Positions 10,953-50,859 of a stretch of 64,000 nt of DNA are shown here, piece after piece; position 1 is the stretch's first letter; each line of letters opens with the position of its first letter. Source of the stretch: Urechis unicinctus (lineage: Eukaryota; Annelida; Polychaeta; Xenopneusta; Urechidae); the NCBI GenBank assembly GCA_034190875.2, contig CM067354.1, positions 68,529,258-68,593,257 on the forward strand, in the 5' to 3' direction. Position numbers and translations under genes: made by a program. The notes under the pieces are model-generated. The model did not search any database. It was given only the letters and a program-made list of their open reading frames with translations, and was not told where the DNA came from.

Positions 10953-12300
10953 TGTTGTATGCTTCTGACCGTTTATTCAAATGATTATGTAATATGTATT
11001 GGGGTATGTTCGTGGTTGACTGTGATTGTCCAGCCAGTTAATGAATATGGCTGGCTCTAGTTAGGTAATGTGATGTGTGTGGGATATAAATGAATTTTAC
11101 GGGTTGGCTCGAGAGTTCGAATCGAGAGAACGTAAGCGTAATACTGATTGAAAACGGTGCTAGGATGTAGTGCAATAAATATACCTTGCGCTCACCGAAG
11201 TCTTTATATATTTGAGTATACGGCTCAGGCCACTACAGAAGAGATACCGGACAGAAGAGAAATACCCGCACTACCACCAACATAGCCAAGGTCATGTTGA
11301 ACGCGCTCATCGATCAATACTCACTATGTTAAGTTACTTCGTCAGTACAAAACAGAATGATTGGGATCAATTGATTCATACCATGGTGTCGTCACTAAAC
11401 ACGACCGACAATTCCCCTCCAGGATATAGCAGTTATTTCCTTGTGTTCGGTAGAAATCCAGTGTTTCCCACCGATATTACTCTCCCCGACCCCCTTCATC
11501 ATTCAAAAACAGTCATTGAACATTTGGTTGATATCGTCAACAATCAAAATATATCGTCTGAAATTGCCGCGAAGCATCTGCAAGAACAGCAACCCAAAAA
11601 CCTGCAAGCAAGCTATTATGGACCTCACATGGCCATCAGACACGTCACACCCACGACAGTGACTTTGAAACGCCTATCGGACGGCAAAGTGCTCACTAAA
11701 GCAATCAACATACAAAGACTCAAACGAGGGCGAATACGTGAACGTGTAAACGGCTGGGACCCCATCCCCATCGACGATTCCAACATTGACGATGAACCAC
11801 TCGAAGCTGAAGACCTTCCATGAAATAGCTTCAGTGACGAAAACGCCCCTTCAGATAACTTCAGCATCACAAACGATATTGGCTTTGTCTCATCTTCCGA
11901 CGACGAAACCTATTTTGACGCGAGCGCGAAACCAGTTAATGACGCAAACGATGGAAATATTTCATACGCACTACTCCCACCATTATCTTCACCCCCACCA
12001 CAAGGCAAATACCACTAACAACAACGTTCCCACACCACCCAACACAACAAACGATATACCAATGGCAACGAAATCTCGATCCAATGACCCCGATCCATGC
12101 TTTCATGAAATATTACGAATATCTGAAGCAACTAGATCCTCATCTTCAGGACAAATTTCCTACTGCGTTCACTTTGTCGATGGGAGCATGCATTGGCTCC
12201 CTGCCTCGGCATTGAACAAAGCCGCTGCACGAAAAGCCCAAAGATTACAAATTAAAAAAACCACTGTCCCACACTTGGGAAACAGATTTCAATAAATGCG
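10953..12300 (+). mobile_element. Ty3/gypsy-type LTR retrotransposon relic (LTR joined to integrase tail)
   Basis: 10953 to about 11270 is an LTR beginning TGTTGTATGC. It is recognised by its match to the solo LTR at 21455-25030: shared GTAATGTGATGTGTGTGGGA, GCGCTCACCGAAGTCTTTAT and GTATACGGCTCAGGCCAC, with an AATAAA near 11173. It is followed directly by the last part of an integrase gene. The primer-binding site, gag, protease, reverse transcriptase and most of integrase are therefore missing. No matching LTR is seen after 12300. I read this as a deletion derivative. Whether the loss happened by deletion after insertion or during reverse transcription cannot be told from the sequence. Confidence 0.75.
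11230..12295 (+). pseudogene. Integrase C-terminal half with chromodomain-like tail (Ty3/gypsy pol fragment), broken
   Basis: The open frame 11212-11823 carries a YHQHSQGHVERAHRSI motif, the usual C-terminal end of the retroviral-type integrase core around the catalytic glutamate. It is followed by the FGRNP segment and a GPY/F-like region (SYYGPHMAIRHVTP ... LKRGR). A stop lies at 11821. The same frame then continues with an acidic linker to a stop near 12016. A second frame (to 12295) holds DPCFHEILRI ... YCVHFVDGSMHWLPASAL, which resembles the chromodomain-type tail of some gypsy integrases. The stop and frameshift, and the missing first half of the enzyme, make it non-functional. Integrase assignment is firm; the chromodomain reading is weaker. 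Confidence 0.8.
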
Positions 12301-20339: not shown

Positions 20340-21454
20340 AATCATTGAATACAGAAGTCATTAAAGAGGGCACAGCTCGTTTATCCGATACATAGCCCGG
20401 CGTCAGACACAAGTTCCTGGAAATGATACAGCATAGACTTTAGCCTGCATCCCCCCGCAGTCCCCCATAGGTACTATGTCGGTAATTGTCTTTACGCTAA
20501 CACAGAATCTTATTACACATACACCGGTTTTAACATATATACCAGTATTCGCTTTCCTGATGGTAGCGTGATCGCTAGCGCTTACTCCAGTTGCCAAGTC
20601 TGATCATGTGGAAGGCCATTGAACAGATTATCAAGTATATTGTACCTCCCTTACATCTCCAATTGACCGTAGAAGGAATCACACATGTGCTGTAGACGTA
20701 TCTATTGGTCTCACATGCTTCGTAAAATAGCTGGTTATAGAACTATGGCCCGTTTTGTTACACTTACGAAGACGTCAACGTGGCATTGATGACTACATAA
20801 ATTACAAGAACCATATGGGTTCCGCAAGTGCTGCCCAAATATAGCTATTAGCACATAATATGTCAATAAAAACTCATACAATTCGACTGACAATCAAATG
20901 ACTGTTTAACCCATTGAATGCTCTATAGTGTAATTAAATCATAGTTTAAACGCCAGCGCTCAATGCACATCTGTTTCAAGCATATACCTTCGAACAAGTA
21001 GCATGTATCACATATTATGTTACTAGCAACCACTATTTCATACGATTCGATTGATAATAACATGCCTGATTAAACCAGTGAATACTTGATAGAGTAATCA
21101 AGTCATCGTTATAAAAGGCCAGTGTTCAGTGCACATCTGTTTGAAGGATAAACGGTTCAAAATACCATAGCAATCAATTGATGAAAACGTCCGTGTTGAA
21201 TCAATAGAGAAAGTTGACTGATTCGTTTGACTCTGTACCAACCGAATGACCATATGATCGTTGATGCTATTTCATCATGCTAGCTGAAGATTTTGTCTTT
21301 ATTCCGGGGTACTGCTAATTTGATGTTCTATGCTCTAGGGCAACAGAGCCCAGTATACTGCCATCACTGCAATACGTCAAAACCTGTTTGATATGTGTAC
21401 ACTACCTGTTCAACGTATTAACTCCTACAACTCTTAGTATGCTAACAGAACAAT
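20340..21454 (+). repeat. Interspersed repeat family A, copy 3b (interrupted by LTR element, resumes at 25035)
   Basis: 20352-20450 matches 10851-10950, 20615-20780 matches 6140-6310 and 28990-29150, 20860-21190 carries the internal tandem repeats, and 21190-21440 matches 29600-29910. The copy breaks at 21454 and continues at 25035-25230, which matches 29945-30130 (shared GGACAAAAAGTAT and AAAGGA/AACA segments). The 3.6 kb between is the later insertion. Confidence 0.8.
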
Positions 21455-21554
21455 TGTTGTATGCTTCTGACCGTTTATTCAAATAATTATGTAACATGTA
21501 TTGGATGTCAGCCCAAGTATATTCGTGGTTGACAGTGATTGGTCAGCCAGTTAA

Positions 21555-21574
21555 AGGTCAACTACAAAGATTTT
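21555..21574 (+). repeat. Left terminal inverted repeat of the nested transposon
   Basis: AGGTCAACTACAAAGATTTT. It is preceded by the target duplication TTAA (21551-21554). Confidence 0.9.
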
Positions 21575-21730
21575 TTTTATTCCATTTTTCCAAAGTTCTA
21601 TGTTTTAAAAGGGTATCGTGACCAAAATAAGGTAACTGCGCGCTTTTTTTCTTTAAGAAAAATGATTTTTAAATGTATATTTCCCACGTCGAATCTGACA
21701 AGATTGGTAAAATTCGTGAATTTCCGTACA

Positions 21731-21742
21731 GTGACGTCATTC
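21731..21742 (+). promoter_or_regulatory. Subterminal CRE-type motif upstream of the THAP gene
   Basis: GTGACGTCATTC contains the full palindrome TGACGTCA, the CREB/ATF consensus. It lies about 107 bp before the THAP start codon (21849) and 176 bp inside the left end. The same 12 bases occur in opposite orientation near the other end. It could be a promoter element or a transposase-binding subterminal repeat. Confidence 0.6.
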
Positions 21743-21848
21743 AGGTTGTTTGCGAATATTCATCGCCATCTTTAGCCTTCCCGGTTGGTTGACAGCGTGT
21801 GACTAATTCGTCTTTCTTCATGGTCTGGTGCGTTTCTTGGTGTGGATT

Positions 21849-23063
21849 ATGCCTTATTGTTGTGCGTTTGGTTGTCGGAACAATGAGAAGTCAGGCGTGA
21901 TTTTTTTTTGTTTCTAAAAGACATATCCGCCGCATATGGGTGTCGAAAGTCAAGCGTAACCCTGGAGTCCTGCCCTTATAGTTATACGACAGTTCTATGT
22001 TCTGATCATTTCGAGAAAAGTGCTTATGAGACTGACCCAGAGCTGCTCAAAAGTCTAGGATTTCGTAAGAAACCTAGGCTCCGAAATGGTATTGGCAGCT
22101 GAGCAGATAGATAAATCAAGTGACAGTGGTGAATCACAGACTGAGGTGTCACATTCAAGTACTGCCGACCTAGGCTAGGCGAAGAAACTTCGCCTCTCAG
22201 CGTCCGCGCTGTTTGCTACACCAGGGGCGAGTGCCTTGCCGTCTGCCGACCATGAAGCTTGCTCTCACTTGTCATTAGGGGTGAAGGCAAATGTTTTGGT
22301 GAGTGTCACAAGGCAACTGCATTATTATATATGATGAAATTGGCAGGGATAACTTCTGTAGTATGTATCCATGTGTCTTTTCAGAGTCAATTTGTAAACA
22401 TTTACATCCTTAAAGGCTATGATGAATGAAATTGTAGCATACTTATTGTATTGATACCATAGATGGCTGACAAGTCTCTACAGACACAGAGTTCTATCTT
22501 TCCTGGCATAAAGAAATATTCAAGAGGTACCCAAGTTGGCCCATCTCACCAAAAGTGTCACCAGGGGCACCCAATATGAGCCCCAGGAGGAATCTGTTGG
22601 ACTGGTGGACAGCGATGATGAGATGGAAACTGACCCTGACTATGACTTCACTGACAAAGTGATGATGCTGAGATGGAAACTGATGATGACATGGCGTTTG
22701 AAGAACTGTTAGGTAAATATTGTTTTGTTTGTAGTGTAATCACAGGGTTTTATTTGATGGAAGAAAAATTTAGCTCACAGAATGCTTATGTACAGTGGTG
22801 TTGATCTGGAGGATGGCCCTAGTCAGAATCAAAGATACTGGGGGAGTTTTGCTTGTTTTGAACAAATCGGCGTGAATGGACACCGTAAGATGTGGGATTG
22901 CCAACTTTTTACAGGAGCTATGCCCGCAGGGTATTTGTTTATGGCTTCAGGGATTTTTGTTAGTGGCAGTAGTGCTATTAGAACACTGAACATGTTCAGG
23001 TATGGGAAAATCCCAAGCCTGTCAAGTACCAATTTCTTTTGGTGTGAACATGCATTAATCTAA
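21849..23063 (+). pseudogene. THAP-domain transposase, 5' part, frameshifted
   Basis: The start codon at 21849 opens MPYCCAFGCRNNEKSGV, the first zinc cysteines of a THAP domain. A nine-T tract near 21901 and a further shift place the middle (IRRIW) in a second frame and the closing CSDHF zinc motif (21908-22102) in a third, so the domain is spread over three frames. An acidic segment (DDEMETDPDYDFTD) lies near 22610-22720, also shifted. The 22782-23063 segment (KMWDCQLFTGAMPAGYLFMA, then SGSSAIRTLNMF) resembles the region that follows the THAP domain in many transposon-derived THAP proteins. Nothing like a DDE catalytic core follows it. THAP assignment is strong. Exon borders are not resolved, and GT..AG introns may separate the blocks. 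Confidence 0.75.
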
Positions 23064-23352
23064 AATGAGACACATGTTATTTTGACATTTATTACCAAAA
23101 CCTGAATAAGTTTCATTTGCACAAACATTGTTACCCAATTAAAAATTGGCATATAATATAACTTACTTATTATATGACTATCATAAAATATGAATATCAT
23201 TGATTTGCTTCAGACTATGTACATCAGGTGCTTGATCTAAGGCAAAAATATCCAAGCTACAGACTTGCTGAGGTCCTTGCAGATGACAGGACTGTCCCAC
23301 CACCTATTGCCTCCCAGTACGAGAAACCTGAAAAGGATCTTCTCGTAGGTGC

Positions 23353-24491
23353 TCACAGGTGTCGATAACCTGTATATTTGCCGCCCGGGTCAGGGAAGGA
23401 TTTTCTAACAGCTGTTACCACACAGGCTGCCAGCACTTTCCTGTTTCTTTTGCCCAGTCTGTGCCATATCCAGAGTGTAAACTGGCAGTAAGCTAGATAC
23501 CTGAATAATCTGAGGCAATATGTCATTTAGTTGTCTATGGTTTTAAAATAAGTTGTATAGCTAAAAAAACAATTGTCATTTGTCAACCATTCCCTCACTT
23601 CATAATTTTATTGTAAGCACTGCCTCTGGAGTTCATGTAACTGGCATTATTTATTCTTGCCTATGTAAAATATATTGTAGTTCATCAATATGAACACTGA
23701 ATATTTTACACAGTGGAATTAATGTTCCCTTTGTAATAAATATGATTGTTCAACCTCAAACCATCCTTTTGGGTAGCAATAATGGCTAACTTACTCATTG
23801 TAGAGACCTCATCTCCAACAGGTCTGTCCATTTGAATAGATTCAAATTTGGACACTTCCAGCACATTTTTATTCATGCAGCTAGCCAGGAATCTGGGATG
23901 CTTGGTGATGCATGTCCATTCCTCCGTTAGAGCCATCACTCTCTCCAAACTTCTGTGGCTGTGTCCATTGGGATGCAGTAATGACATCTACACCTAAGTT
24001 AGAGAAATAATTAAAGAGTCATTGTAAATTTATATTTGTGGTACAATGAATGAATATAAAAGGAAAATACTTTATAAACTGCATGCAAACATCTGTCCAC
24101 AATATTCAATGTGCTCAGGGTACAATGACAAAGCTACATTCACTAGCCAAGTACTATTTGTTGTAGTAGTTAGGTCTGTCAACATACCATCCTCTACTTA
24201 CAGAATGTGTAAATTTATTGGGTAAATGAAACTAACGATTATTTTTTACCAGTTAATATAGTTCAATAAAGCTTGGGAAGTGTATTCTAAAACTTACCAT
24301 TCAACGAAATCTTTTGTTGATTCTTCATCCGAAGCGGAACCTTGAATTAGACTTCGAGCTCCCGGTGTCATTTCGTAGTGTGACTTGGATTTTTCAACTT
24401 CCGTCCGTATTGGCCCAAATAAATAGTCATGGACATGATTTGCCCCAATGTTATGCTATGGGGACTCGTAAACTTCATCAGAAGACGACAT
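23353..24491 (-). pseudogene. P2X7 intracellular (ballast) domain-like protein, three exons, decayed
   Basis: Minus strand. Exon 1 (24491-24298) starts MSSSDEVYESP, has an in-frame TAG, then carries HDYLFGPIRTEVEK (the Y-x-F-x-P motif typical of this family) and an acidic stretch. It ends at a GTAAGT donor. Exon 2 starts at 23993 after an AG; the joined phase gives W followed by CRCHYCIPMDT, the cysteine motif of the family, which confirms the splice. A frameshift follows, then WTCITKHPRFLASCMNK, then a GTAAGT donor at 23794. Exon 3 (about 23505-23353) encodes RYLAYCQFTLWIWHRLGKRN and VTAVRKSFPDP, the conserved C-terminal part. In P2X7 this fold binds zinc and guanine nucleotides. The stop and frameshift make this copy non-functional. 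The exon 2 to 3 junction is not phase-checked. Confidence 0.8.
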
Positions 24492-24582
24492 GGTTTGTCA
24501 AAACGGTGTAATTTTAAAATCCAAACAATCGTTTTTTGCTTCGCTCGCTCGCAGTCAAATTCTCTTGGAGGCAGCGCAGCAG

Positions 24583-24594
24583 GAATGACGTCAC
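24583..24594 (-). promoter_or_regulatory. Subterminal CRE-type motif upstream of the P2X7-ballast-like gene
   Basis: On the minus strand it reads GTGACGTCATTC, identical to 21731-21742. It lies about 92 bp before the start codon at 24491 and 205 bp inside the right end, in a locally CpG-rich stretch. Confidence 0.6.
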
Positions 24595-24779
24595 GCAACG
24601 TGAACCTAGCGGCCAACTGAGGCAAAATGGCATCGAGAAGATGGCTTCGTATTTTCTTCCGAATGAAACCTTATCGGTGGATTTTTAGTACTTATGCATG
24701 CCGTTGCAATGAATAATGGGTCCCCGTTGGTTCATGAGTTATTAATCTTCAATTTGAAACACATTATAAAGAAATGATG

Positions 24780-24799
24780 AAAATCGTTGTAGTTGACCT
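24780..24799 (-). repeat. Right terminal inverted repeat of the nested transposon
   Basis: Read on the minus strand it is AGGTCAACTACAACGATTTT, one mismatch from the left end. It is followed by TTAA (24800-24803). Confidence 0.9.
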
Positions 24800-25034
24800 T
24801 TAAGGAAGAGGGCTGGCCCTTGTTAGGTAATGTGATGTGTGTGGGATATATGTGAATGATACGTGTGGGCTCGAGAGTTCAGATTGAGAGAATGTAAGCG
24901 TAAGACTGATTGCTAGGATGGAGTACAATAAATATATATTGCGCTCACCGAAGTCTTTATATATCTGAGTATACGGCTCAGGCCACTGCAGAACAGAAAC
25001 TGGACCTAAATGAGAATTAGCCTCACATCACAAT

Positions 25035-25230
25035 CGGCTTCACTTTTTACATTTATTCATTTTATGTTCAATGATTTATCGTGAGAATGTATAAGGAAAG
25101 GCACCGACAAATTGCTGTGTTGGACAAAAAGTATCAAGTTTTATTGGCTATTGTACAAAAGGAGCATTGAATATTAAGGTAGGATGTCTTGATATTTATG
25201 CCACACGAGTCGATGATTATATATACTATA
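25035..25230 (+). repeat. Continuation of family A copy 3b after the nested insertions
   Basis: Matches 29945-30130 (TTTACATT near the start, GGACAAAAAGTAT, GGTAGGAT and GTCGATGATT segments). This shows the sequence on the two sides of 21455-25030 was once contiguous. Confidence 0.75.
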
Positions 25231-49878: not shown

Positions 49879-49994
49879 ACATGTAAATCTCGATATTTCC
49901 CCCCGCACATTGATATCTTAGTGCACCACGATCTATTTCAATTGTTGCACACATACATGCATACACACTTAAATGCAGGCATGCATGCATGCAT

Positions 49995-50850
49995 AAATAC
50001 ATACATACATACATACATACATACATACATACATACATACATACATACATACATACATACATACATACATACATACATACATACATACACATACACATAC
50101 ATACATACATACACATACATACATACATACATACATACATACATACATACATACATACATACATACATACATACATACATACATACATACATACATACAT
50201 ACGTACGCACGTACGTACTTACGAACGCACGCACGTGCGTAAATAAATTCATTCATACATACATGAATATATACATACATGCATCAACATTTATATCTAC
50301 ATACAAATGCATACTAGCATACATTCGTATATAAAAATACATGCAGACATGCAGACATGCAAATATGAATATATGCACGCACACATACATGCATACATAC
50401 ATTCATTCATATTCAGGCATGCATTCATGCTTGCATACTTTGATACTTACATACACACATATGATAAACATATATACATTCATGCATACACACATATATA
50501 CATACATGCATATATGCATAGAAGAGTACATACATTCATACATGCACACATACAAACATACATACATACATACATACATACATACATACATACATACATA
50601 CATACATACATACATACATACATACATACATACATACATACATACATACATACATACATACATACATACATACATACATACATACATACATACATACATA
50701 CATACATACATACATACATACATACATACATACATACATACATACATACATACATACATACATACATACATACATACATACATACATACATACGTACGTA
50801 CGTACGTACGTATACAACATACATGCATACATACATACATACATACATTC
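49995..50850. repeat. (ATAC)n tetranucleotide microsatellite, two long blocks
   Basis: Nearly pure ATAC repeats at about 49997-50205 and 50555-50792. Between them lies a decayed middle (50206-50554) still rich in ATAC/ATGC. Both pure blocks end in a run of TACG units. The long ORFs on both strands are artefacts. Confidence 0.97.
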
Positions 50851-50859
50851 ATTTATCAT

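Follow-up and report, generated by a model that had tools for sequence, protein, structure and literature searches.

Does the gene for a protein like the cytoplasmic ballast of P2X7, which lies inside a transposon of the annelid Urechis unicinctus, belong to that transposon, or was it captured by accident? The locus is part of a stretch of 64,000 nucleotides of contig CM067354.1 (assembly GCA_034190875.2, positions 68,529,258 to 68,593,257 of the forward strand), and this whole stretch is called the window below. An earlier note, made from the sequence alone, had described there an element with TTAA duplications and inverted termini, which carried a THAP transposase gene on the plus strand and, convergent with it, a three-exon ballast-like gene on the minus strand. 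Kolobok elements of the Kol0 lineage, which is represented by Kolobok-1_XT, encode a protein named KolX beside their transposase, and KolX resembles residues 476-595 of human P2X7 (Kojima and Bao, 2022, PMC9587614). The analysis revealed that neither the copy in the window nor the rest of its subfamily is alive or autonomous. The element is very probably an internally deleted, non-autonomous Kolobok of the Kol0 lineage, derived from a dead master that was copied many times, most likely moved in trans by the transposase of intact relatives. The ballast-like gene is therefore called KolX in the following.

The element comprises positions 21551-24803 of the window (3,253 bp), with TTAA at each border and exact ends in the sequence. 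Both the TTAA duplications and the inverted termini of the earlier note were verified. The inverted arms span 21551-21586 and 24768-24803, and within them the 13-bp sequence AGGTCAACTACAA is a perfect match at both element ends (Table 1).

The earlier note had proposed to search for copies by their ends and to look for both genes in them. The genome (1,190,315,542 bases in 926 contigs) was searched with the leftmost 250 bp, which were found in the window and at 39 other places with 96-97% identity. As these were the best 40 of 921 first-look candidates, the copy number is a lower bound. The best-scoring 20 of the 39 other places were fetched; this sample was chosen by the left end and is thus silent on copies that lack it. 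Both ends were present in 17 of the 20 relatives, while the right end was absent from the fetched stretch in L013, L021 and L023. Together with the window, 18 bounded copies of 2.4-3.9 kb were obtained, each with a 4-bp duplication, which was TTAA on both sides in 17 copies and TAAA on both sides in one (L020). None of the 153 copy pairs had common flanks (12-mers, 150 bp per side), and therefore the copies are separate insertions. Their mean pairwise identity was 97.9%, and their distance from the column majority was 0.7-1.6%, a similarity that reads as a recent burst.

The gene content of the copies was determined with eight probes, which covered the THAP domain, two stretches of the transposase and the three KolX exons, with two probes on exon 3. 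All eight were present in 15 of the 18 bounded copies. L027 has a single one of the two probes on exon 3, exon 3 was lost from L009, and exons 2 and 3 were lost from L022; the latter two still have both ends. Ballast-gene sequence was found inside the ends of every bounded copy. Among the copies without a right end, L013 had eight probes, L023 seven, and L021 the THAP probe alone. In L013 a second left end was observed about 1.7 kb past the first, and this copy was apparently inserted into, or nested with, another copy of the family. In L028 a 577-bp insertion between 10-bp direct repeats (GCTCTCACTT) follows alignment column 766; it is unrelated to the element.

The likeness of the minus-strand gene to the P2X7 ballast, proposed in the earlier note, was confirmed by a profile search, in which PF20478 matched exon 3. 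The phase-consistent junction of the first two exons is also real: a W codon is divided between TG, which closes exon 1 at 24298, and G, which opens exon 2 at 23994, and a GT-AG intron (GTAAGT ... AG) lies between them. Thus the motifs and the junction stood, but the gene is not intact, with a TAG in exon 1 and a frame break in exon 2. The frames of the THAP region, exon 1 and exon 2 were read in 19 copies, i.e. the 18 bounded copies and L081. The TAG was found at the 12th codon of exon 1 in 18 of the 19; L018 is shifted and stops earlier. Exon 2 is present in 18 of these copies (all but L022), and its out-of-frame spacing was identical in 17 of them, L081 being off by one base. In the window copy the frame break disrupts the CC-pair region of the seven zinc cysteines. 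A solved-structure search with the 61-amino acid exon 3 of a window-family copy yielded no match, and no P2X channel domain was present in the Pfam-scanned readings of the window, L059 and relatives.

When exon 2 of the window was used as a query across the genome, 129 of the best 150 of 1664 candidates had no stop, and 113 of those were near full query length (hand count), so that open exon 2 copies are common. The best of them (L081, C4:38634121) was considered as a live relative and was rejected, because it is a copy of the dead subfamily in which a private change opened exon 2. This copy (L081:483-3914, in L081:1-7901) lies amid reading frames that belong to a large, virus-like transposon, with an integrase core (PF00665, 5.5e-8) in its surroundings, and by eye it was apparently inserted in a Polinton-like element.

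A THAP domain is common on Kolobok transposases. The THAP zinc motifs that the earlier note had read at 21849-22102 indeed belong to the remnant of such a domain, but its frame is broken, and for this reason PF05485 scored below the cut-off in the window. The same region of related elements scored 8.9e-13 (L075) and 8.9e-17 (L076). In 18 of the 19 copies no single frame runs through from PYCC to CSDHF, and in all 19 the reading stops at the identical site just past the domain, where the elements L074-L076 read on. The catalytic middle of the transposase (DDE core) was not found between 23063 and 23204, and a homologue search with the central remnant (22758-23063) gave no match. The gene breaks are common to the copies and are therefore older than the presumed burst.

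Table 1. Features of the element, with their positions in the window.
Feature	Position	Strand	Basis
Left TTAA target-site duplication	21551..21554		17/18 copies have TTAA on either side, one has TAAA on either side
Left terminal inverted repeat, AGGTCAACTACAA with an imperfect extension	21555..21586	+	36 nt including TTAA, 83% complementary
THAP domain remnant of transposase, frame broken, then stop common to 19/19 copies	21849..22102	+	PF05485, E 0.034 on 21887-22102
Central transposase remnant, before the catalytic core	22758..23063	+	Open reading frame; by-eye likeness to L059 transposase; no Pfam family over cut-off
Transposase C-terminal end remnant	23204..23368	+	Open reading frame, by eye; very similar reading on the transposase strand of L074-L076
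KolX exon 3, C-terminal part of P2X7-type ballast domain (YCQFTLWIWHRLGKRN)	23353..23526	-	PF20478, E 2.1e-7; exon borders uncertain
KolX exon 2	23795..23994	-	CRCHYC, CITKHP; AG acceptor at 23995-23996; frame broken around 23933-23950; low-end 5' splice site uncertain
KolX exon 1	24298..24491	-	Start ATG at 24491; YLFGP motif; codon 12 is a premature TAG; GTAAGT donor begins at 24297
Right terminal inverted repeat	24768..24799	-	Pairs with left arm; found in copies too
Right TTAA target-site duplication	24800..24803		Sequence and copies

Better-preserved relatives were found in the same genome. The 6.77-kb element L059 has TTAA-AGAGGCTGTTCAGCC ends, which were found in 3/3 copies. Its minus strand contains transposase exons with the motifs GDGRSDSPG, TDAHPQI, DVWH and LENF, which by eye represent D, D, DxxH and E. 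On its plus strand, convergent with the transposase, an open exon encodes the ballast (PF20478, 7.6e-29), and in a solved-structure search this ballast matched P2X7 chains with 2.5e-16 and seven cysteines in common. In the L060 type an open one-exon ballast gene (PF20478, 2.6e-30; P2X7, 4.2e-18) was accompanied by transposase pieces on the opposite strand; element ends were not found for this type, and the TTAA search gave only other inverted repeats. A large inverted repeat with several 20-of-20 mirrored matches was observed downstream of the L060 ballast gene (L060:5194-8318), and it is a separate palindromic structure. The elements L074-L076 have TTAA-AGATCA ends in 3/3 copies, a THAP domain of up to 8.9e-17, a C-terminal transposase reading and a convergent, intron-split ballast gene that is most like that of the window; a complete transposase core was not seen in them. 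Hence, two other TTAA families with different termini (L059; L074-L076) enclose a convergent pair of transposase and ballast gene between their ends. Together with the ballast sequence in all 18 bounded copies, this corroborated the claim of the earlier note that the ballast-like protein belongs to the transposon family. Genome-wide, all 150 places that were scored (the best 150 of 2591 candidates) exceeded the PF20478 cut-off, and none of 14 control genomes gave a match.

Upstream of the open ballast exon of L059, on the same strand, a cysteine-rich reading CRCKGQCVRRCPCKKNGTNCSTRCFCKVKFCRN was observed (L059:1783-2100, also in L031 and L032). It looks like a CXC (tesmin/TSO1-type) motif, although Pfam gave no match for it with an E value of 1 or better. 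It may be the N-terminal exon of the L059-type KolX.

All seven zinc cysteines of KolX are present by eye in L059 and L060, and the last one is lost in L034. Nonsynonymous and synonymous divergence (dN/dS) was compared between copies that had been picked for an open frame, a choice that biases the values towards constraint. An excess of dS was found for L059-L038 (0.085/0.308), L060-L041 (0.048/0.142), L060-L033 (0.039/0.092) and L059-L034 (0.028/0.060), and no such excess for L031-L034 (0.033/0.029), L032-L034 (0.031/0.030) and L031-L032 (0.007/0.000). These values hint at constraint on KolX in open copies. A homologue search with the L059 KolX retrieved one protein among 7 candidates (P0001, 135 amino acids, 50% identity, PF20478). 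A scan of viral contigs with the L060 ballast gave 6 pattern matches, none of which was confirmed as a relative.

These results can be arranged into the following scenario. The ancestor would have used TTAA target sites and would have carried a THAP-DDE transposase on one strand and KolX convergent on the other, with 3' ends that overlapped or nearly touched. The catalytic core of the transposase would then have been lost and both reading frames broken. The dead master would have given rise to many copies, cut and pasted in trans by the transposase of intact relatives, which would recognise the common ends. KolX would act with the transposase, most likely as a helper of transposition, which probably binds nucleic acid or a nucleotide via a zinc-stabilised fold.

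Several observations weigh against this scenario. In L017 the THAP region is open in a single frame, with F in place of the second zinc cysteine, so that its decay is incomplete in one copy; the first 40 residues of this reading, taken alone, matched no Pfam family. The odds of the dead state are unchanged by it, because the stop past the domain is common to the copies and the core is absent. KolX exons are missing from two of the 18 copies (L009, L022). As both keep their two ends, a copy that has the ends need not carry an intact KolX itself, and under the proposed supply of the protein in trans its loss would be expected. In the L059 transposase no THAP domain was seen where it was looked for, and thus its N-terminus either differs from that of the window family or was missed. 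Moreover, the L059 transposase core has no Pfam match over the cut-off; its longest exon gave a Mutator-like transposase (5e-4) and Stereocilin (8.2e-5), both below it. Lastly, since an intact parent with exactly these ends was not among the relatives read, the trans-acting source is one that we infer, and transposases of intact relatives are the most likely one.

It could also be imagined that a host ballast gene of the nanor-like type was caught once and was amplified as a passenger without any tie to Kolobok biology. In favour of this, the ballast gene is dead in the subfamily and dispensable in cis. The earlier note had named copies with the same ends but without the ballast gene as a sign of such a capture; ballast sequence was retained in all 18, and exons were lost in the two copies mentioned. 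However, the convergent pair in two more families with different ends largely refutes an accidental capture, exon 2 is open near full length at the 113 of 150 places given above, and the refutation is completed by the KolX reported in Kol0 elements of diverse animals (PMC9587614). A single accidental capture is thus highly improbable.

An assignment of the element to piggyBac or KolobokP instead of Kol0 is slightly less probable still. Its termini are 5'-AG...CT-3' and fit the Kolobok rule of 5'-RR and YY-3' (PMC9587614). Long terminal direct repeats, a trait of KolobokP, were not present in 21300-25100, where the longest direct repeat has 27 nt, and a His-Me finger nuclease family, another KolobokP trait, was not among the Pfam matches of the eight window readings scanned. 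In addition, the THAP domain was confirmed in the relatives L075 and L076, and the L059 transposase is by eye of the DxxH type. A host locus with TTAA ends that pair by chance, for which nothing was found in favour, is refuted by the 17 other bounded copies, which have these ends and mostly the same contents but lie between unrelated flanks, and its probability is negligible.

The Kol0 elements, with Kolobok-1_XT, and the element described here are alike in the TTAA target, the AG...CT termini and the combination of a transposase with a separate ballast protein. Unlike them, the window copy is non-autonomous, lacks the catalytic core and has two broken genes; the published Kol0 plan is fitted by the better-preserved L059. 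The ballast of P2X7 (PF20478; PDB 6u9v, 8tr5, 9e3m, 9e3q) could be aligned with about 120 residues of L059 and L060, and by eye seven cysteines are conserved between them. In contrast to P2X7, KolX is here a stand-alone transposon gene, and no channel part was seen. The ballast is intron-split in the window family and lies in a single open frame in L059 and L060; in P2X7 it is encoded by the last exon (Rump et al., 2020, PMC7016195). The domain has been described in many animals, and the genes for Nanor and other stand-alone ZCD proteins were reported to number one or a few (<10) in each species (PMC7016195). Like KolX, these proteins are short, contain this domain and are found across animals, but their gene number contrasts with the 150 scored places in this one genome.

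According to Kojima and Bao, P2X7 originated when a P2X4-like gene was fused to KolX, and Nanor probably represents a KolX that was domesticated (PMC9587614). The idea that transposons may have been the mobile source of the P2X7 tail, which the earlier note had put forward, is thus already in print. The text of Rump et al. contains no word beginning with "transpos" (PMC7016195). The literature search for P2X7, the ballast domain and transposons together yielded Kojima and Bao only (PMC9587614), and that for P2X7 with Kolobok yielded the same article and one review with a single mention of each. Other matches to KolX were unrelated by title, among the matches listed.

Elsewhere in the window, a plus-strand reading frame at 11179-11823 resembles by eye the integrase end of a retroelement (GHVERAHRSILTMLSYFV); in Pfam it had no match with an E value of 1 or better. 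A long ACAT tetranucleotide array of about 227 copies was observed at 49951-50852.

Taken together, an additional family, its dead state and its better-preserved relatives in one genome are new here, while the central idea is not. In a genome in which the domain scores at 150 or more places, the findings independently support the view that the ballast domain of P2X7 is part of a transposon class. KolX occurs in two gene forms in this genome, an intron-split form (window family, L074-L076) and a form with a one-exon ballast (L059 and L060 types). It may be speculated, as a rather unlikely proposal, that the one-exon form is kept open, possibly under purifying selection, as a working partner of the transposase, and that the P2X7 tail, likewise contained in one exon, descends from it. 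If this were true, the role of the ballast before its union with a channel could best be learned from living one-exon elements. The L059-type relatives, in which an open ballast gene lies beside a transposase, make the role of KolX, and hence the original role of the P2X7 tail, directly testable.
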